Below are positions 18,564 through 27,965 of a stretch of DNA of 64,000 nt, piece after piece (position 1 is the first letter of the stretch; the number at the start of each line of letters is the position of its first letter). A program made the translations under genes and the position numbers. The DNA comes from Lentzea aerocolonigenes (GTDB taxonomy: Bacteria; Actinomycetota; Actinomycetes; Mycobacteriales; Pseudonocardiaceae), in assembly GCF_000974445.1 (NCBI RefSeq), contig NZ_BBOJ01000004.1, positions 62,001 through 126,000 of the forward strand. Reading direction: 5' to 3'. The notes beneath the pieces are model-generated. The model was given only the letters and a program-made list of their open reading frames with translations. It had not been told where the DNA came from and ran no database searches.

Positions 18564-21500
18564 CTACGCACCCTCGTGCGTGACGTAATGAGATACGAGA
18601 AACCCGTTGTCCAGCTTGACGATCTGCCCCACGACGAGCTTGTCGGCCGGGTCCGCACCGGACAGGCCGGTTCCGCCGGGGCGGGCGAACGTCAGCCTCC
18701 CGGACGCGCCCGGGAAGTCACGCATAGTGCGCAGCTTCTGGAAAACGTGTTCCCGTGACGAACCAACCTCAGTCGAGCGCGCGACGACGCTGACGGCGTC
18801 GTAGGCGAGCAGGACGTGTCCGTTGGGGCCCGAAAGAAAAGCCCGTCTCGCATGTCGCTTCTGCGCTGCTTCGTAGGTGGTGAAGAACTGTTGCGTCGAC
18901 TGGGGAATCGACTCGTGTCCGGGTGTCCACGCGAACGTCGTGAAGTAGAGCCTTCCGTCGGCGAATCGTTTGATGTCTTCCAGATCGGTGAAGCTGGTCG
19001 TCTCCAGCTGGGTCAGGTCGTCCCCGCCGAACACCACGGGGTCGGTGCAGTTGCTGTGGCTCAGCTCGGTCAGCAGCCCGCCGACCTCGGCGGCGCGGCC
19101 GGTGTAGAGGATCAACGGCTTCGGCGACTTGCCGCAGATGTTCGACACGACGGTGCCGAGCTGAGCGGTCACCGTGTTCGCGGTCTCGTCGTAGTCGTGC
19201 TGCTCGGGCTTGAGCACCTCGCGGAACTCGTCGGCGAGATCCGCGCTGTACTCGTCACCGGTGCTGCGCACGAGGTGCACCGGGCGGTCTCGCAGCGCTT
19301 CGGTGCGCTCGATGATCCGCGCGGCGACCTGGGCCTGGCGATCGTTGGCCGGGGCGATGCGGAAGAAATAAGGCTTCTCGCTGAAGTTCGTCGACGACAG
19401 GGACGAGCCGACCATCGGGATGCCGTTCGCGTGATCTTTCGACGGCCCCAGGATGCCGAGCGCCGACAACGTGGTCCCGCGGCTCTGCCCGAGTCCCGTC
19501 ACCGCGATCACGTTCGCGTCACGCTCGGCGTACGCGCGGATCTCGCCCGCGACCCTTTCCGCGTACTTCGACTCACCACCGAAGTTCGCGAGAACGAGAC
19601 GCACCAACGGGTTGCGGCCGAGCCCGTCGAGCTGGTTCCAGTCGCGCTGGGCGAGATAGGCGCCGCGCAGCTCGTTCACCCCGGCCGACAGGTCGCGCTT
19701 CACGCGCTCGTTGGAGCTGAGCATCGTGGCGACGACGATCGTGACGACGCGGCGGTCATTCACCTTGGCCGCGCGGTCGTTCTCCTCGGCGATGAGCTTC
19801 GCGAGCTCCTCGACCTCGGCGTCGTCGTTGTTCTGCAGCGCCGGGTCACCGTAGGCGAACCGACCTGGTTTCTCACTCAGGCCGACACACTGCACGCCAT
19901 CCACTTTGGACAGATGAGGTCGCTTGCCCGCGAGGTCGGCGATGAGATCGACTGGGTCGTAAATGCCGTAGCGCAGACAGTTGTTGCTGCTCTGGAGGTA
20001 GAAAGCCGCGCCGTACAACACGAGCAGCACGGCGACGAGGTAGACCGCGACGCGGCGCAACGCGTTGCGGCCGGGCCAGCGTCGCGGGTACGGGTACCTG
20101 CCGATGGTGGACGAGCGCGGCAACGCCCCCGGCGGCGACGCGGGAATGTCGTTTTCGAGCACGCGTTTCGTTGTGCGGTAAGCGGTCAGGTGTTCCTCGG
20201 CGCCGTCGAGCTCCTGATGAGTGCGCAACACCCGGTCGTACATCTCGACGGTCGGGCGGACGATCCTGCTGCGGGAGCGCAGTTCCCACGTGGCGATGAC
20301 CGCGTCCTCCAGCAGCCCGGTCTCAGGCCGCACCACGCGGTCGTAGCGGCGGTGGATGTTGCGTCTGGTACCGGTTCTGAGGCGCTCCCACCACGTGCGG
20401 GGCTCCTCCTCGAACTCCGGTTCGCCCTCCCCCGGCGGCATCGGCGCCTCGGCGACGGCCGCGAGCTCCGCGATCCAGCGGTCGCTGCGTTCGTCGACGT
20501 GGGGACGCAACCTGTGCGCGACGAGGTGGACTTCGCCGAGCGCGAGTGCGTGGTACAGCGCGTCTTCGCGTTGCCCGAGGCTGTCGTAGCGGTCCTTGAG
20601 CAGCCGATGGACCTTCCTGTGCGAGAACGGCTGATCCTCTGGCACCTCGCGAAGCCTGCGCACCAGCAGGTCGCGCAACAGCGGGTGCAGCACGAAGTTG
20701 TCGCCGTCCTGCCGCACGAAGCTGAGCTGTGCCAGCAAAGCACGCATGTTCTCGGCCGACCAGGACGCCGGCAGCAGCGCGCGGATCACGTGCCGGTCGA
20801 GCACACGCGGAGCGGCGAGGCGGGCGAAGATCTCGCGCGCCGCCTCGCGTTCCGGCATCTCCTCCGCGCCGGGAATCCGTTGGAAGAACCGGAGAAGCAG
20901 GTAGTCGCCGACCGTGGCATCCTGGAAAGTCGTGGTCTCGTCGACCGGCAACCGCTCGTCGAACACCGAACGCACCGACGGCAGCACCTGGTCGCGGGCG
21001 AACACGAACTGCACGAGCTGGATCGCGAGCCGCACCGCGAGCGGGTGGCCGTGCGTGACCTCCTGCAGCTCCTCGATGAGCGCCTCGGACTCGACGGTGC
21101 TGTTGCGGGTGCGGTTCCACTCGGCGAGGAACTGCCGTGTCTGCGCCAACGTGAACGGCTTCAGGCACACCGGCTTGAACACCGACGGCACAGCATCGGC
21201 CTGTGGCGGCGCCGACTGCTTGGTGGCGATGACGAGCAACGGCACGTGCGGTTCCTGAACGCGCCGTTCCGCGAGCAGGCTCAGGAAGTCCGTCGCCCGC
21301 GCGGTGGGTCGCGGACGTTTCGGTGGCAGGTAGGAGTCGATGCCGTCGAGCAGGTCGGCGCCGTCGAGGAGCAGCAGGCTGTTCATCCTGCGGTAGCCGC
21401 GGAACCGGTAGGCGGCCGTGATGTCGGCGAGGAACGCGGCGACCAGCAACCGGTCGATCTCCAGCGTGTCACCGGCCCGGTGGAGGCCCCACATGTGCAC

Positions 21501-22172
21501 GAGCGCGGCGTCGAACTTCGGGCGCCCGACGTAGTTCTCGAACCACCGCAACGCACTCGCGACCCGCGGGCCGCCCAGCAGCCACCGCAAGGGGCGCGGC
21601 GCGACGACCGCGAGCCCGATGAGCCGCAGCAGGAGCGGCCGCAGCACCTTCCCGAGTCCCTGGGCGGGCGGCAGCATCTCGACGACCTCGGCGGCGTCGG
21701 CGACCGCGACCAGCCTCGTCATCTGCTTGGCGGCGAGCTCACGTGCCCGGTGGAGCGGGTCGTCACCGATGTCCGCATCCGTCTCCGCGTTCATCTCTGG
21801 GCGCAGCGCGAGGCGGGCGAGGGCGTAGCGCGGCAGCCGCATGCGGCCGAACTCGGCGTGCCGGTAGGAGCGCAGCTGCTCGGCCGCGACGTCGAGGATG
21901 TCCTTGCAGGAGCGGGAACCCGCCCGGTCGAGGTCGACCTTGGCCGTGGGGGCGTCGCGGTAGCGCCGGCGGACGTGGTCGAGCAGCGACGTCTTGCCGC
22001 TGCCGCCCGGCCCGTAGGCGACGATCACCGGCAGGGGGTGCTTGTGGCGGCGTTCGACCAGCGACTCCACCAGTGCGGTGATGTCGTCCCTGCCGACGAG
22101 CCCGATCTCCGGTTCCAGCGCCATGATCCTCAGACGCTTCGGGAACCGATCCTGTTCCGTCTCCAACGACAT
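18564..22172 (-). CDS. STAND-like ATPase, transmembrane helix and periplasmic-binding-type sensor fusion
   Basis: A 1202-residue protein with three parts. The first (residues ~20-600) is a P-loop NTPase, with a GRDD box, Walker A GPGGSGKTS at 54-62, Walker B SLLLLDGAD at 265-273, a later ATKQS sensor-like strand and helical/winged-helix segments. This layout resembles AAA_16/STAND regulators. The second is a single membrane helix (~706-727, VYLVAVLLVLYGAAF). The third (~740-1202) looks like a type 1 periplasmic-binding (branched-chain amino-acid receptor) fold, with GILGPSKDH, PMVGSSLSSTNFSEKPYFFRIAPAND and LLAYDAVSVVARS. It should bind a ligand outside the cell and signal to the internal ATPase. 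Start ATG 22172 is 3 nt after the GntR stop; ATG 22124 is an alternative. Confidence 0.85.
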   Translation of the reverse strand: MSLETEQDRFPKRLRIMALEPEIGLVGRDDITALVESLVERRHKHPLPVIVAYGPGGSGKTSLLDHVRRRYRDAPTAKVDLDRAGSRSCKDILDVAAEQLRSYRHAEFGRMRLPRYALARLALRPEMNAETDADIGDDPLHRARELAAKQMTRLVAVADAAEVVEMLPPAQGLGKVLRPLLLRLIGLAVVAPRPLRWLLGGPRVASALRWFENYVGRPKFDAALVHMWGLHRAGDTLEIDRLLVAAFLADITAAYRFRGYRRMNSLLLLDGADLLDGIDSYLPPKRPRPTARATDFLSLLAERRVQEPHVPLLVIATKQSAPPQADAVPSVFKPVCLKPFTLAQTRQFLAEWNRTRNSTVESEALIEELQEVTHGHPLAVRLAIQLVQFVFARDQVLPSVRSVFDERLPVDETTTFQDATVGDYLLLRFFQRIPGAEEMPEREAAREIFARLAAPRVLDRHVIRALLPASWSAENMRALLAQLSFVRQDGDNFVLHPLLRDLLVRRLREVPEDQPFSHRKVHRLLKDRYDSLGQREDALYHALALGEVHLVAHRLRPHVDERSDRWIAELAAVAEAPMPPGEGEPEFEEEPRTWWERLRTGTRRNIHRRYDRVVRPETGLLEDAVIATWELRSRSRIVRPTVEMYDRVLRTHQELDGAEEHLTAYRTTKRVLENDIPASPPGALPRSSTIGRYPYPRRWPGRNALRRVAVYLVAVLLVLYGAAFYLQSSNNCLRYGIYDPVDLIADLAGKRPHLSKVDGVQCVGLSEKPGRFAYGDPALQNNDDAEVEELAKLIAEENDRAAKVNDRRVVTIVVATMLSSNERVKRDLSAGVNELRGAYLAQRDWNQLDGLGRNPLVRLVLANFGGESKYAERVAGEIRAYAERDANVIAVTGLGQSRGTTLSALGILGPSKDHANGIPMVGSSLSSTNFSEKPYFFRIAPANDRQAQVAARIIERTEALRDRPVHLVRSTGDEYSADLADEFREVLKPEQHDYDETANTVTAQLGTVVSNICGKSPKPLILYTGRAAEVGGLLTELSHSNCTDPVVFGGDDLTQLETTSFTDLEDIKRFADGRLYFTTFAWTPGHESIPQSTQQFFTTYEAAQKRHARRAFLSGPNGHVLLAYDAVSVVARSTEVGSSREHVFQKLRTMRDFPGASGRLTFARPGGTGLSGADPADKLVVGQIVKLDNGFLVSHYVTHEGA

Positions 22173-22175
22173 GGC

Positions 22176-22943
22176 CTAACGGCCGGCGTGCAGCCTCGCC
22201 ACGAAGCTGAACCGATCACCGCGGTACAGCGACCGGGCGCGTTCGATCGGGTGCCCGTCGACGTCGTAGGAGACGCGGTGCAGCAACAGCATCGGCAGTG
22301 CGGGATTCGTTCCGATGAGCAGCGCCTCACGGGGCGTGGCGAGCACGGTTTCGACGCGTTCCTCGGCTTCGGCGAACCGCACGCCGAGCCGTTCGGTGAG
22401 GCACGCGTAGAGCGATCCGGCCGGGTCGAGCTTCTCCAGCAGGCCGGGGAAGCGGCCGAGGCTCAGGTAGGTCGACTCGAGGCCGATGCGCTCGTCGTCG
22501 GCGAGCAGGACCCGTTCCAGGTGCACGACCGGATCGCCGGGTTCGATCATCAGGTCGCGAGCCAGGCCGTCGTCGGCGCCGAGCTCCTCGACGGTGATCA
22601 CGGTGCGGTTCGGTTCGACGCCCTGCCTGCGCATGCCTTCGGTGTAGCTGACCAGCGACAACGGCTGGACGAGCTTCGGCGGCGCCACGAACGTGCCGCT
22701 GCCCTGGCGGCGGATGAGCTTGCCTTCGAGAACGAGCTCGCTGACGGCCTGGCGGAGCGTCACGCGCGAGACGGAGAACCGTTCGGCGAGCTCGCGCTCG
22801 GACGGCAGGACGGTGCCTTCACCGAGGGTCTCGACGAGGTCGAACAGCTCTGCCTTGACCGCGTAGTAGCGCGGGACTCGGCCGTGTTCTGGGATGCCCG
22901 CGCGAACGGGTCGATCAGCGCGGTGCGGCGGGACGCGGTTCAC
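22176..22943 (-). CDS. GntR family regulator, HutC/UTRA subfamily
   Basis: A 255-residue regulator with a winged helix at ~residues 25-90 (VLPSERELAERFSVSRVTLRQAVSELVLEGKLIRRQGSGTFVA) and a UTRA ligand-binding domain at ~105-250. The GTG start at 22943 lies 8 nt after a TAGGCT -10 box and has no ribosome site, so its own transcript would be leaderless. It sits between the orphan binding lipoprotein gene (31 nt upstream) and the large ATPase-sensor gene (3 nt downstream), all reading leftward. UTRA domains usually bind amino sugars, sugars or amino-acid derivatives. Confidence 0.9.
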   Translation of the reverse strand: MNRVPPHRADRPVRAGIPEHGRVPRYYAVKAELFDLVETLGEGTVLPSERELAERFSVSRVTLRQAVSELVLEGKLIRRQGSGTFVAPPKLVQPLSLVSYTEGMRRQGVEPNRTVITVEELGADDGLARDLMIEPGDPVVHLERVLLADDERIGLESTYLSLGRFPGLLEKLDPAGSLYACLTERLGVRFAEAEERVETVLATPREALLIGTNPALPMLLLHRVSYDVDGHPIERARSLYRGDRFSFVARLHAGR

Positions 22944-22974: not shown

Positions 22975-23808
22975 TCAGGGGGCCAGCTTCGGCGGGTCGG
23001 GGATCTTGTAGCCGGAAGATCCGATGTTGGCCTCCAGCGACTTGCGCCAGGCACCGCTGTCGATCATCTTCTGCAGTGCTGCCTGGACCTTCGACTTGCT
23101 GCTGGGGTCGTCGCGGTGCAGGCCGACGCCGTACTCCTCCTTGCTGAACGACTGGCCGACGACCCGCAGGAGCTCGGGATTCTGGGCTGCGTAGCCCGCG
23201 AGCAGGACGTCGTCGGTGGTGACGGCGTCGACGTTGTTGGCCAGCAGTGCCGTGACGCAGTCGCTGAACTTCGCGTACTCGACCATCTTCACGTCCTTGG
23301 CGAACTGGTCGCGCACGTACGCGGCGGAGGTCGAGCCGGCCGTGGAGCACAGGCGAAGGGTGCCGTTGAGCGACTTCGGGCCCTCGATGCGGGTCTCGTT
23401 CATGCGCACCAGCAGGTCCTGGCCCGCGACGAAGTAGGGGCCGACGAAGTCGACGATCTCCTTGCGCTTGTCCGTGATCGAGTACGTGGAGACGACCATG
23501 TCGGCTTCACCGCTGGTCAGCAGCGTCTCCCGGTTGCCGGGCTGCGCTTCCTTCCAGGTGATGTTCTGCTCGTCGACGCCCAGCTCGTTCGCGATGAACT
23601 TGGCCACGTCGACGTCGAAACCGCGGTAGCTGCCGTCGAGCCTGCGCACCGCCATACCCGGCTGGTCGTACGACACGGCGATGGTCATGCGGTCGTCGGC
23701 GCTGACCTTTCCCACCATGGTGGACTTGTCGCCGCCCGCGCACGAAGCGAGGAGCAGCACAGCCGCACATGTCGTCGCCACCAGGCGGAGGAGCGCTCTC
23801 GGCGTCAT
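22975..23808 (-). CDS. Orphan glutamate-type ABC substrate-binding lipoprotein
   Basis: A 277-residue family 3 solute-binding protein with a signal peptide ending in lipobox LASC. The two-lobed amino-acid-binding pattern is clear: YRGFDVDVAKFIANELG, MVVSTYSITDKRKEIVDFVGPYF and DAVTTDDVLLAGYA. It resembles the glutamate/aspartate GluB group. No permease or ATPase genes are adjacent. It is followed by a GntR regulator and a membrane ATPase with its own binding-protein-like sensor, so a sensing role beside or instead of transport is plausible. Confidence 0.9.
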   Translation of the reverse strand: MTPRALLRLVATTCAAVLLLASCAGGDKSTMVGKVSADDRMTIAVSYDQPGMAVRRLDGSYRGFDVDVAKFIANELGVDEQNITWKEAQPGNRETLLTSGEADMVVSTYSITDKRKEIVDFVGPYFVAGQDLLVRMNETRIEGPKSLNGTLRLCSTAGSTSAAYVRDQFAKDVKMVEYAKFSDCVTALLANNVDAVTTDDVLLAGYAAQNPELLRVVGQSFSKEEYGVGLHRDDPSSKSKVQAALQKMIDSGAWRKSLEANIGSSGYKIPDPPKLAP

Positions 23809-23960: not shown

Positions 23961-26618
23961 TCAACGCAGACGGCGTGGACCGGCATCGTGCAGGGACGGA
24001 GGCGGGCCGATGACGATGCGCGCGCTGCTGACGAAAGCCCCTGCGGCAGAAGCAAGAACAGGTTCGAGCTTCAGCGAGCGCACCTCCGGAAGGTCCTCCG
24101 CCAGTGCCGCCAAACGGAGCACCAGATCCTGAAGTGCTTTCAGGTCCGCGGGTTCGTCGCCGCGGTAACCGGTCAGCAGAGGCGCCGCTTTCGGTGCCGC
24201 AACGAGTTCCGCCGCGTCGGTGTCGGTGAGGGGTACTGCCCGGTAGGCACGGTCGCCGAGGAGGTCGCTGACGAGACCTGACAGTCCGAACCAGACCAAC
24301 GTGCCGAAGCTCGGGTCGTCCTGCAGGCCCAGCACGCAGCTGACTCCCTTGGGTGCCATGCGTTGCACGTACACACCCGGCTTGCCCGACAGCGCCGCGA
24401 GGTCGTGGTAGGCGGCCTTGACCGATTCCTGCTGGGCGATGTCGAGCCGGACGCCGACGAGGTCCGTGCGGTGACGCAGGCGTTCGCTGGTGGCCTTCAT
24501 CGCGACGGGGTAGCCGAGCTCGTCCGCGGCCCGGGCGGCTTGCTCGGCACTGTGGGCGATGCGGAACGGAACGACGTCGATGCCGTAGCACGCGAGCAGT
24601 TCGACGGCTTGGTCGTCGTCGAGCCTGCGCTCTGCGCTCGTGCCGTCCACAATGGACCGCGCACGTTCGGTGTCGATGCCCTCCGGTCTGATGAAGGTGC
24701 CCTGGGGTGCCGCGCGCCAGTGGGCGTAGCGGACGGCGCGGGCCAATGCGAGAACGGCGCGTTCCGGACTGGCGTAGCTGGGAATCGAGCCCTTGCCGGG
24801 CATTTTCAGCTCGTCTGGAATGCCCTCGACCGCGAGGAACGTCGAGACGATCGGTTTCGTGCGGTGCGCGGCGTCCTTGAGCGCGCGGGCGTAGGCGGCG
24901 CCGGGGACCGCGATCGGCGGGACGAACACGACGACGAGAGCGTCGGTGTCGGGGCGGTCGAGGGCCTCCTTGACCGCTTTCGCGAACTCCTCGGGGGTGG
25001 CCTGGGCGCCGACGTCGACGGGGTCGCCCGCGAGGTCGAGGTCCTGGGCCAGCAACGTGTCGGCGGCGAGCAGGCCGATGGCGGTGGAGTTGCCGACGAC
25101 GGCGACACGCTTGCCCTGCGGCAACGGCTGGTGAGCGAGCAGGAGCGCCGTGTCGAACAGCTGGGCCAGCGAGTCGACCCGGATGACGCCGGCCTGCTCG
25201 AACAGCGCCTGCACGCTCGCCTCGTCGACCTTGGCGCCGGTGGCGGCGAGACCGGGCACGACGGCGTGGCGGCCGGACTTCACCGCGACGATGGGCTTGG
25301 TGCGGCCGAGGCGGCGCGCGAGCCTGGCGAACTTGCGCGGGTTGCCGAACGACTCCAGGTAGAGCAGGACGACGTCGGTGGCCGGGTCGGTCTCCCAGTA
25401 CTGCAGGAGGTCGTTGCCGGAGACGTCGGCGCGGTTGCCCGCCGAGACGAACGTGGACAGGCCGAGGCCCCAGCCCGCGGCGTTGGCCAGGATGGCGGTG
25501 CCGAGGGCGCCGGACTGGCAGAAGAAGCCGGCGCGGCCGCGTGCGGGGAGCTTCGGGGCGAGGCTCGCGTTGAGGCGGACCTTGGGGTCGAGGTTGAGCA
25601 CGCCGAGCGCGTTCGGGCCGACGACGCGCATGCCGTGCGCTCTCGCCTCGGCCGCGAGCCTGCGTTCGGCGGACAGACCGTCCGGTCCCGTCTCGCCGTA
25701 GCCGGAGCTGACGACGACGAGCGCCTTCACGCCCTTGGCGAGGCATCCGTCCATGACCTCGTCGACGCTGGCGGCGGGGACGGCGACGACAGCGAGGTCG
25801 ACGTCGTCGGGGATGTCGAGCACGGTCGGGTAGGCCCGCACGCCTCTGACCGCGCGGTGCTCGGCGTTGACCGGGTAGACGGGGCCGGTGAAGTCGGCTT
25901 CGAGGAGGTTCTTGAGGACCGCGTGGCCGATCTTGGTGGGGTCGGTGGAGGCGCCGATGACGGCGACGCTGCGCGGGTGCAGCAGGTTGTGCACGCTGCG
26001 GGCTTCGGCGGCCTGCTCGCGAGCCCTGGCGACGGCGACGGACTCGTCGGTGGGGTCGATGGCGAACTCCAGGTGCAGCACGCCCTCCTCGAACGCCCTG
26101 CTGACCTGGTAGCCGGCGTCGCGGAACACCCGGACCATCTGCCCGTTCTCGGCGAGGACCTCGGCCTCGAACCGGGTCAGCCCGACCTCCCTGGCCGCGG
26201 CGGCGAGGTGTTCGAGCAGGATGCTGCCCAGCCCGCGCCCCTGGTGGCCGTCCTCGACGACGAACGCGACCTCAGCCGAATCTCCCTGATGACCGCCTGG
26301 GTGATTGTCACCGTGCAGCCGGTCGAACCTGCCGACCGCGACGATGTCGTCACCGAGCAACGCGATGAGCGCCACCCGGTCGTGGTGGTCGACGGTGCTG
26401 AACCGCTCGAGGTCGCGCTGCGGGATCCGCGGGTAGGGCCCGAAGTACCGGAAGTACCGGGTCCGCTCCGAGAGCCTCCCGTGGAACTCCTTGAGCTTCT
26501 CGCCGTCGTCGGGCGTGATCGGTCGCAGGTGGACGGTGCCGCCGTCGCTGAGGACGACGTCCGCCTCCCAGTGCCGGGGGAAGTCGAACGGGTCCCGGCG
26601 CCCATCTGTGGAGCCCAT
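23961..26618 (-). CDS. Pat-like protein lysine acetyltransferase with acyl-CoA synthetase-like domains
   Basis: An 885-residue protein in the actinobacterial order: an N-terminal GNAT acetyltransferase (~residues 25-190, with acetyl-CoA loop VEDGHQGRGLGSILL), then the NDP-forming acyl-CoA synthetase-like CoA-binding and ligase-CoA domains (~210-650) and an ATP-grasp segment (~660-870). Enterobacterial Pat has the GNAT at the C-terminus instead. Homologues acetylate metabolic enzymes such as acetyl-CoA synthetase. The acuC deacetylase gene ends only 6 nt before this start. The two therefore form an acetylation/deacetylation operon. Confidence 0.92.
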   Translation of the reverse strand: MGSTDGRRDPFDFPRHWEADVVLSDGGTVHLRPITPDDGEKLKEFHGRLSERTRYFRYFGPYPRIPQRDLERFSTVDHHDRVALIALLGDDIVAVGRFDRLHGDNHPGGHQGDSAEVAFVVEDGHQGRGLGSILLEHLAAAAREVGLTRFEAEVLAENGQMVRVFRDAGYQVSRAFEEGVLHLEFAIDPTDESVAVARAREQAAEARSVHNLLHPRSVAVIGASTDPTKIGHAVLKNLLEADFTGPVYPVNAEHRAVRGVRAYPTVLDIPDDVDLAVVAVPAASVDEVMDGCLAKGVKALVVVSSGYGETGPDGLSAERRLAAEARAHGMRVVGPNALGVLNLDPKVRLNASLAPKLPARGRAGFFCQSGALGTAILANAAGWGLGLSTFVSAGNRADVSGNDLLQYWETDPATDVVLLYLESFGNPRKFARLARRLGRTKPIVAVKSGRHAVVPGLAATGAKVDEASVQALFEQAGVIRVDSLAQLFDTALLLAHQPLPQGKRVAVVGNSTAIGLLAADTLLAQDLDLAGDPVDVGAQATPEEFAKAVKEALDRPDTDALVVVFVPPIAVPGAAYARALKDAAHRTKPIVSTFLAVEGIPDELKMPGKGSIPSYASPERAVLALARAVRYAHWRAAPQGTFIRPEGIDTERARSIVDGTSAERRLDDDQAVELLACYGIDVVPFRIAHSAEQAARAADELGYPVAMKATSERLRHRTDLVGVRLDIAQQESVKAAYHDLAALSGKPGVYVQRMAPKGVSCVLGLQDDPSFGTLVWFGLSGLVSDLLGDRAYRAVPLTDTDAAELVAAPKAAPLLTGYRGDEPADLKALQDLVLRLAALAEDLPEVRSLKLEPVLASAAGAFVSSARIVIGPPPSLHDAGPRRLR

Positions 26619-26624
26619 TGGCTT

Positions 26625-27797
26625 CTAGTCCCTGGGGTCGTCCGGATCGAGTCCGTGCAACGGGAACACCGCACGACGCGTGTCCCGGATCGCCTTGTCC
26701 ACCGGTTCCTCCGCGTCCCCGCCCCACGGCTGGTGCACAGGGTCGCATCCATCGGTCATCGACGCAGGCAAAGGCCAGTCGGGCGCGATCCGTGTCGCAT
26801 GCGCCACCCAGTCCGCGGGCAACGGCCGCGCCGGGTCGACGTCGCGGTCCAGCACGGTCGCCAGCAGGTGCGTCCACGACCGCGGCACGACCCTGAGCAG
26901 CTCGTACCCGCCACCGCCGAGCGCGAGCCACTTGTACCCGTGCTCGTTGACCAGCTCGCGGAACGCCTGGTAGATCGCCCGGTGCCCGTCGACGCTGAGC
27001 GCCAGGTCCGCGAGCGGATCCTCCTTGTGCGTGTCGACACCGCACTGCGTGACCAGCACCTGCGGCCGGAACGCCTTGAGCAACGCCGGCACGGTGGCGT
27101 GAAACGCCCGCAGCCACCCGCCGTCCCGCGTCCCCGCGGGCAACGGCACGTTGACCGCACTCCCCTCGGCCCCCGCGCCACCGACCTCGCCGGCCCACCC
27201 CGTCCCCGGCCACAGGCTCATCGGATGCTGGTGCAACGAGATCGTCAGCACCCGCGGGTCGTCCCAGAACGCCGTCTGCACCCCGTCACCGTGATGGACG
27301 TCGACATCGACGTACGCGATGCGCTCGACCCCGCTGCGCAACAACCACTCGATGGCCACCGCGCAGTCGTTGTAGACGCAGAACCCGGCCGCGCTGTCCG
27401 GCATGGCGTGGTGCAACCCACCGGCGATGTTGACCGCCCGGTCCGCCTCACCCGACGCGATGGCCCGAGCCGCCGCCAGCGACCCGCCCACGACCAGCGC
27501 CGAAGCCTCGTGCATCCGCTCGAACACGGGGTTGTCCGGCGTCCCCAGCCCGTGCCCGACGTCCCACCCGGCCGTCGGCGCCGCCTGCACGGCGCTCAGA
27601 TATCCGGGCCGATGCACCAGTTCGATCTCTTCGTCGCTGGCAGCCGCGGGCACCCGCAGGTCGACCCCGTCCAGCACCCCGAGCGCCGTGGCGAGCCGAA
27701 CCGTGAGGTCGAGCCGGACGGGGTTCAGCGGATGGTCGCCACCGAGGTCGTACCCGAGGAAGGACCTGTCCCAGACAACAGCGGCTGGCTTACCCAT
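26625..27797 (-). CDS. acuC: AcuC-type class I histone deacetylase-like protein deacetylase
   Basis: A 390-residue arginase/deacetylase-fold enzyme. Zinc and catalytic residues are visible in GGLHHAMPDSAAGFCVYND (His pair), YVDVDVHHGDGVQ (Asp and His ligands), and the late CGVDTHKEDPL aspartate, with GGGGYEL near 310. It removes acetyl groups from lysines of acetyl-CoA synthetase and related enzymes by zinc hydrolysis. ATG 27797 is set by a TAGGTT -10 exactly 7 nt upstream (leaderless). It is the first gene of a two-gene unit with the Pat-like acetyltransferase. Confidence 0.92.
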   Translation of the reverse strand: MGKPAAVVWDRSFLGYDLGGDHPLNPVRLDLTVRLATALGVLDGVDLRVPAAASDEEIELVHRPGYLSAVQAAPTAGWDVGHGLGTPDNPVFERMHEASALVVGGSLAAARAIASGEADRAVNIAGGLHHAMPDSAAGFCVYNDCAVAIEWLLRSGVERIAYVDVDVHHGDGVQTAFWDDPRVLTISLHQHPMSLWPGTGWAGEVGGAGAEGSAVNVPLPAGTRDGGWLRAFHATVPALLKAFRPQVLVTQCGVDTHKEDPLADLALSVDGHRAIYQAFRELVNEHGYKWLALGGGGYELLRVVPRSWTHLLATVLDRDVDPARPLPADWVAHATRIAPDWPLPASMTDGCDPVHQPWGGDAEEPVDKAIRDTRRAVFPLHGLDPDDPRD

Positions 27798-27804
27798 GGC
27801 CAGC

Positions 27805-27810
27805 AACCTA
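27805..27810 (-). promoter_or_regulatory. -10 box of the leaderless acuC-pat operon
   Basis: On the minus strand TAGGTT is followed by GCTGGCC and then the acuC ATG, a 7-nt gap with no ribosome site. Confidence 0.65.
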
Positions 27811-27889
27811 CCCACCGATCGGCCGAGCCGGTGATCACAGGTTGGCCGCCACCCGCGCCCGACACCCCCGAGCCGCCTACAGTGCCACT

Positions 27890-27965
27890 TCTCCGGGCCA
27901 CCTCGCCGGGCCACCTCGCCGGGCCACCTCGCGGGGTCCACCTCGCGGGTCCACCTCGCCGGGGC
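27890..27965 (+). repeat. Tandem 13-bp direct repeat (GCCGGGCCACCTC)
   Basis: Five to six units of about 13 bp, some 14, with small variants such as GCGGGGTCCACCTC, lie 45-120 bp upstream of the DUF3558 lipoprotein gene and behind the divergent acuC start. Unit identity is high at the centre. There is no spacer diversity, so it is a simple tandem repeat and not a CRISPR. It could be a phase-variable spacer or a repeated binding site. Confidence 0.8.

Follow-up and report, generated by a model that had tools for sequence, protein, structure and literature searches.

A Venus flytrap domain joined across one predicted membrane helix to a STAND NTPase in Lentzea and its actinobacterial relatives

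The STAND class of molecular switches, to which NLRs and Apaf-1 belong, is known for reading intracellular signals; MalT and other STAND nucleoside triphosphatases (NTPases) sense their ligands inside the cell. In ANP-receptor cyclases, class C G-protein-coupled receptors (GPCRs) and Venus kinase receptors, an extracellular Venus flytrap domain is coupled to an intracellular output, as described in an excerpt of PMC2680970. Here we describe a gene in a 64,000-nucleotide window from Lentzea aerocolonigenes (the whole stretch of DNA analysed; contig NZ_BBOJ01000004.1, positions 62,001 to 126,000) that encodes a STAND-type NTPase, one predicted membrane helix and a flytrap domain in a single chain, hereafter termed the fusion. 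Its product shares with MalT, NLRs and Apaf-1 the P-loop, Walker B and GxP motifs and a match to MalT over the winged-helix region, but the sensor is predicted to lie outside the cell, and a Pfam/NCBIfam scan of the protein found no DNA-binding, death-type effector, caspase or cyclase domain. Compared with the flytrap receptors, it has a predicted extracellular flytrap with a predicted intracellular output but in the reversed order, with the flytrap C-terminal, and it is bacterial and carries a STAND NTPase inside.

The nearest printed relative of this layout is the actinobacterial two-gene EACC1/caspase 'System 4' of Kaur et al. 2020, in which, according to section 33 of PMC7159879, some caspase proteins end in a transmembrane (TM) helix and an extracellular periplasmic binding protein (PBP) domain. 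Both are actinobacterial and membrane-associated, with a C-terminal TM helix followed by a binding domain in some System 4 members; however, the intracellular constant part of System 4 is either a caspase or a cyclase, preceded by an EACC1 gene, whereas the Lentzea fusion has a STAND NTPase, and that section reports no STAND–TM–PBP protein (PMC7159879). A passage of PMC8195603 mentions one protein whose C-terminal part has extracellular CHASE2 or, alternatively, STAND domains. Among the titles and abstract beginnings of the literature searched, with most subscription journals and older STAND surveys outside its scope, we found no account of STAND–TM–PBP proteins.

A sequence-only reading of the window had proposed one 1202-residue chain of NTPase, membrane helix and binding-protein domain and had given no strand. 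These parts indeed lie in a single open frame of the minus strand, and the plus-strand reading of the same interval contains a stop. The features of the gene are as follows.

18564–22172, minus strand, stop included: whole fusion open reading frame counted from the first ATG, 1202 codons
22122–22124, minus strand: favoured, predicted start codon Met17 with GAGGATC before it, product 1186 amino acids; the upstream ATG may still be the start
20373–22124, minus strand: STAND NTPase, winged-helix and helical region, predicted cytosolic, residues 17–600, borders approximate
21990–22013, minus strand: Walker A GPGGSGKT, residues 54–61; G54 and K60 in 16/16 fusion rows
21351–21380, minus strand: Walker B region SLLLLDGADL, residues 265–274; D270 in 52/52 fusion and two-gene rows
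21207–21248, minus strand: strand HVPLLVIATKQSAP, residues 309–322, which we take to be sensor-1-like; conserved in the family alignments
21039–21056, minus strand: motif THGHPL, residues 373–378, which we take to be the GxP motif of the STAND class; conserved in the family alignments
19995–20051, minus strand: sole predicted TM helix by hydropathy, residues 708–726, with an Arg-rich N-terminal side
18567–19991, minus strand: type 1 periplasmic-binding (Venus flytrap) domain, predicted extracytoplasmic, residues 728–1202, with Cys 732, 762, 1013 and 1042

Met17 (22124) is preferred as the start because non-Lentzea matches begin at about residue 15–19 and because GAGGATC lies 5′ of the codon. 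Within Lentzea, similarity extends upstream to residue 2–6, which leaves the start codon uncertain. The locus is present in seven named Lentzea records, six at 86–88% identity (L007, one of these six, has two in-frame stops) and one, a wreck, at 81%; L and G numbers here and below are our own handles for relatives. Among six intact Lentzea copies the ratio of nonsynonymous to synonymous substitution (dN/dS) is 0.10–0.22 by region, with 0.12 for the NTPase and 0.20 for the flytrap. The frame is under purifying selection and is therefore not a chance frame.

The N-terminal half carries both nucleotide-binding motifs that had been read from the letters, GPGGSGKT at 54–61 and LLLLDG from residue 266. 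Across 52 fusion and two-gene rows, K60 is kept in 45, G375 in 52 and P377 in 47, alongside the invariant D270. A family profile built from 21 rows matches the STAND protein MalT (8bob, E = 1.3e-5) in the region after the NTPase core, the winged helix, and also matches the P-loop protein 6c2u over the P-loop alone. With the single sequence, the best Pfam evidence is AAA_16 (E = 7e-7, 30.3 bits against a curated cut-off of 32.6); no curated STAND-type Pfam model scores above cut-off on the window protein, AAA_16, NACHT, nSTAND_NTPase5 and NB-ARC all falling below, and among the 21 rows NACHT appears as a weak match in 5 and nSTAND_NTPase5 in 7. The STAND assignment rests on motifs and family profile and is made without a named subfamily, and at the level of this NTPase class the proposed analogy to NLRs appears to hold. 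A KAP-type NTPase was considered and rejected, its Pfam match being at trace level only. In the two-gene member L052 (3623–6049, plus strand), the NTPase has an N-terminal extension with FVDIAGST that looks by eye like a class III nucleotide cyclase, has no Pfam match and is a possible output domain. On an Embleya plasmid, an NTPase/binding-protein pair is preceded, 166 bases upstream, by another NTPase (L103, 440–2527, plus strand) that has several hydrophobic segments and a match to NACHT.

The resemblance of the C-terminal half to branched-chain amino-acid-binding proteins was likewise borne out by profile matches. The single-sequence Pfam match is ANF_receptor at E = 0.0034, under the curated cut-off; a flytrap family profile of 30 rows has as its best match the LivJ-type structure 4gnr (1.3e-14, query residues 74–441 of 454), followed by mGluR5, the GABA-B receptor and the ANP receptor. 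We transferred to the family, through an alignment with LivJ, the residues S79, T102, Y150, Y202 and E226, which we take to be the LivJ ligand contacts; the 4gnr alignment agrees at the Ser and Asp positions. Pocket columns are conserved across 65 flytrap rows, with Ser or Thr at 897 in 64 and at 926 in 64, and Tyr at 975 in 62. At residue 1026, the position of LivJ Y202, all 65 rows have Arg, a family-specific residue. Because only 20 of 474 columns reach at least 90% conservation, Arg1026 and Tyr975 stand out. The LivJ positions mapped here presumably correspond to the amino-acid motif of the mGlu1 flytrap. The main residues of that motif, as listed in an excerpt of PMC2680970, are Ser165, Thr188, Asp208, Tyr236 and Asp318. 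The residues at the pocket positions suggest a ligand that resembles an amino acid and bears one more acidic group.

Hydropathy gives one clear membrane helix, at 708–726 (mean Kyte–Doolittle (KD) value 2.41), in line with the single helix claimed at 706–727. The runner-up, at 173–191 in the NTPase (1.68), holds two Arg and one Lys; it was rejected as a second helix of the window protein, with an insertion energy of about +6.4 versus −1.4 for 708–726 on the scale used for both segments. The equivalent region has a KD value near 2 in relatives L042, L047 and L102, and the segment may make amphipathic contact with the membrane. In 17/17 fusion rows and in 8/11 fusions of a degenerate class described below, the 20 residues on the N-terminal side of the helix contain more Lys and Arg than those that follow it. 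All four cysteines of the C-terminal domain are retained in 20 of the 21 fusion rows, the exception being L007, whose row is a fragment owing to its two stops. Across the 65 flytrap rows C762 is found in 65 and C1013 and C1042 in 64 each, and C732 was judged from the 21-row fusion alignment, since cropping cuts its counts in the larger one (65 flytrap and 63 NTPase rows). On the NTPase side, the position of C336 is Arg in 18/21 fusion rows. If the cysteines pair, as we assume, this pattern is consistent with a C-terminal domain exposed to an oxidising exterior. The sequence-only reading had placed the sensor outside the cell on the condition that the ATPase is cytosolic and the helix the only one; charge bias and cysteines make an outside C-terminus likely, and we retain that topology as a prediction. 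In the two-gene relative L079 (7782–9278, minus strand), the binding protein begins with a helix followed by LSGC, a possible lipobox, which suggests that in some two-gene members the binding protein may be a lipoprotein and not helix-anchored.

The fusion is not a lone oddity but represents one layout in a family that has three. Of 249 Pseudonocardiaceae genomes searched with the whole protein, 100 gave matches to either half (E up to 1e-8), and 85, spread over 21 of 46 genera, matched the NTPase profile (E up to 1e-40). In a sample of the phylum that included the own genome the family is rare, with the NTPase in at least 5 of 396 genomes at 1e-12 and the flytrap in at least 8 of 396 at 1e-40; the wide genome searches scored the best 2–4 candidates per genome, so that their counts are lower bounds. 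Genes in the relatives' loci were called with a custom gene caller. The first layout comprises single-chain fusions of about 1160–1300 amino acids, found in Lentzea and, outside it, in 13 genomes from six genera, with further separate single-chain fusions in G109 and in Lentzea G156. In the second, at 37 loci, an NTPase (mostly 600–700 amino acids; extremes 565 and 808) is followed on the same strand by a binding protein of about 450–535 amino acids. The third consists of 11 proteins of 844–971 amino acids in which a degenerate NTPase, matched to the NTPase profile with an hhalign probability of 99.5, is joined through a helix to a flytrap. Longer fusion-like frames (for example in G132, G142, G158, G159 and G232) lie outside these layout counts. 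Proteins that lack Walker A and retain most flytrap pocket positions, pseudo-NTPase receptors in appearance, were seen at L092 (5837–8374, plus strand; contig C45 of the own genome), L041–L045, L049, L054, L055, L059 and L102.

The pairing of the two halves is the strongest evidence that they work together. All 20 NTPase loci read from the profile search carry a flytrap domain, which is fused in 1 and in the other 19 is encoded by the next gene downstream, on the same strand; these loci were hand-picked, not random, and in four of them (G205, G015, G066 and G022) the whole-protein search had already shown a binding-domain match. In the phylum sample, the partner is adjacent in three of the four other genomes with an NTPase match. 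The own genome contains all three layouts: flytrap scoring of its full set of 95 first-look candidates yielded three strong members (one fused, one in an operon and one whose fused NTPase is degenerate), all of them with an NTPase half, together with a fourth, distant match at C39. The three layout labels need 3 changes on a flytrap-domain tree, against a mean of 21.4 when shuffled, and 'fused' needs 2; the 808-amino-acid protein of L052 was left out of the degenerate class in this tree and in the alignment counts, and wrong-strand L107_OUT out of the tree's group counts. No third gene was seen to recur beside the pair in the gene layouts read, in which no search aimed at EACC1 was made.

We consider it fairly probable that the fusion is a single-pass, one-chain receptor in which an amino-acid-like ligand outside the cell switches a membrane-tethered STAND NTPase. 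In this model the C-terminal flytrap, outside the membrane, would close on an amino-acid-like ligand held by the LivJ-type residues, with the invariant Arg1026 meeting a further acidic or carboxylate group of the ligand. Closure, or ligand-driven dimerisation as in the flytraps of class C GPCRs and the ANP receptor, would be transmitted through helix 708–726 to the cytosolic NTPase, which would then swap ADP for ATP and assemble at the membrane, much like MalT and NLRs in response to internal ligands. In the two-gene relatives the same signal would cross between two proteins of one operon, which would make the unit a dedicated sensor–switch pair. Since neither an N-terminal effector domain nor a conserved third gene was found, the output would have to be carried by the NTPase assembly itself or by an unlinked partner.

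Several observations weigh against this model. Some fusions have a marginal helix (KD 1.46–2.5), and the charge bias is weak in the two-gene members, holding in 10/17 helix-bearing rows with five opposite and two ties; some of these two-gene rows are truncated at the start by gene calling, and the L052 808-amino-acid protein was left out of the counts. A cysteine on the NTPase side, C89, is retained in 17/21 fusion rows (in the larger alignment, 11/16 fusion and 0/36 two-gene rows). The Walker A Lys, K60, is kept in 0/11 proteins of the degenerate class, and ATP binding is thus not needed in all members. One NTPase, at L091 (7687–9774, plus strand), has no binding-protein partner in the stretch read. 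In the pocket, the fourth contact (LivJ E226, here D1051) is retained in just 48/65 rows, and the larger alignment shifts LivJ S79 by one column and puts E226 opposite a gap, making the first and fourth contacts alignment-dependent. AlphaFold models have a mean pLDDT of 43 for the flytrap and 34 for the NTPase, poor because only six close sequences were used to build them, and the fold search gave no match below E = 0.001, though its first seven rows were class C GPCR structures.

A nutrient-uptake role, in which the binding domain feeds an ATP-binding cassette (ABC) importer and the NTPase merely regulates it, was weighed against the gene neighbourhoods. The fusion resembles LivJ-type importer solute-binding proteins (4gnr, 1z15) in fold by profile and in most ligand-holding positions, one relative is labelled 'ABC transporter substrate-binding protein' in the database, and at L044 a branched-chain/ribose-type permease lies four genes off. 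However, the fusion differs from those proteins in the Arg at the Y202 position, in its extra conserved cysteines, in its tie to an NTPase and in having no recurrent permease. Across 44 loci, with four genes read on each side, 36 of 338 neighbours have at least four predicted helices; all were scanned, and three ABC-importer permeases were found, at two loci. The one at L044 sits in a cassette with its own ATPase, a lipoprotein (by eye) and a ROK regulator, a cassette not seen in the close relative L045, and the two at L059 adjoin a glycosidase gene. The commonest multi-helix neighbours are MFS transporters, with an alanine symporter at L059 and an amino acid permease at L060 as single loci, and no importer type recurs among the 36. 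The ABC-importer reading is unlikely, and we give it a slim chance.

Directly upstream of the fusion, and in the order SBP3, GntR, fusion in each Lentzea copy read, lie two further genes.

22176–22943, minus strand: GntR/UTRA regulator
22975–23808, minus strand: orphan family 3 solute-binding lipoprotein (SBP3) with lipobox LASC

The sequence-only reading had coupled these to the fusion in a three-component nutrient or signal system, and the genes are co-directional neighbours in every Lentzea fusion copy read. The proposal failed when Lentzea genomes without an intact fusion were compared. Among 19 Lentzea, the fusion is intact in six and not in 13 (two of the 19, L005 and L008, were found by searching for the gene itself; otherwise it is intact in 4/17), and the SBP3–GntR pair is in place in all 13 of the latter. 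A search for GntR in 24 genomes found an orthologue at 87–96% in 12/12 Lentzea searched that lack an intact fusion; in other genera the best match is at 70–75% in five g16 genomes and at 47–50%, the level of the second Lentzea copy, in seven, and it is distant from the fusion in 12/12. The stretches read around the fusion in those 12 genomes, from five other genera, contain no GntR or SBP3 homologue; a thirteenth, G011, was not counted because its contig is too short around the fusion. In G032, of another genus, the fusion occupies the same place, between homologues of W_18070 and of an acetyl-CoA-ligase-like gene, without GntR or SBP3, and in the remaining other genera read it lies in different neighbourhoods. 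The gene order is thus not kept in the stretches read in other genera, the retention of the pair in all 13 fusion-less genomes suggests that SBP3–GntR is likely a separate two-gene unit, and joint action of the three genes appears very improbable. Next to SBP3, a GNAT acetyltransferase fused to an acetyl-CoA-ligase-like protein (23961–26618, minus strand) adjoins a histone-deacetylase-type enzyme (26625–27941, minus strand); the two look like a lysine acetylation/deacetylation pair and also lie beside the fusion in G032.

The 13 non-intact loci comprise four wrecks (L007, with its two stops; L011/G105; G213; G170), six short scars, one doubtful case and two without a trace. The scars, found by a permissive search at E 2e-8 to 0.002, are remnants of the C-terminal end of the fusion between GntR and the next gene (L094, L095, L096, L098, L100 and L101) and strengthen loss as the explanation; L093 has a doubtful scar at E 1.1, and the same search found no fusion trace in L097 or L099. 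At this one syntenic place, ten Lentzea (L007, L011/L075, L076, L077, L094, L095, L096, L098, L100 and L101) display decay ranging between in-frame stops and a scar comprising the final 40–90 codons, with the neighbours retained. Mapped onto the Lentzea tree, the intact state requires 5 changes, 3 of them forced by well-supported branches. Given these losses with the pair retained throughout, and the purifying selection on intact copies, the fusion gene was therefore probably present early and then lost repeatedly while SBP3–GntR stayed.

Such repeated loss, with the fusion intact in 6 of 19 Lentzea, would also fit a conflict or defence receptor whose flytrap reads a phage, competitor or kin signal at the surface and whose STAND NTPase sets off a protective or suicidal response, in the manner of the NLR-type systems of multicellular bacteria. 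The STAND class itself favours that reading, as does the TM helix with extracellular PBP domain in some actinobacterial conflict proteins described in the cited section of PMC7159879. However, PADLOC gave no match for the window protein and only traces for its relatives (E 0.0006–0.0076), neither an effector domain nor a recurrent effector gene was seen at the loci read, and the conserved pocket positions are those of a small-molecule binder. There was no match among 50,697 phage records and there were two among 72,556 plasmid records, on which count a mobile or phage origin was also rejected. We regard a defence role as possible, though on the doubtful side.

Returning to the amino-acid-gated receptor, we see about an even prospect that the three layouts together form an unrecognised bacterial receptor family that relays outside signals inward. 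In such a family an amino-acid-type flytrap outside the cell would gate, directly and through one helix, a STAND NTPase of the NLR class in the cytosol. Its members would work either as single chains or as complexes of two proteins, and those with a dead NTPase would serve as dominant or scaffolding subunits. The natural two-gene split provides separately expressible halves and so makes the coupling of sensor and NTPase testable. If the model is correct, the STAND class would extend to transmembrane signalling, with an outside sensor like that of glutamate and GABA receptors, and proteins now filed as transporter binding proteins would gain a role.

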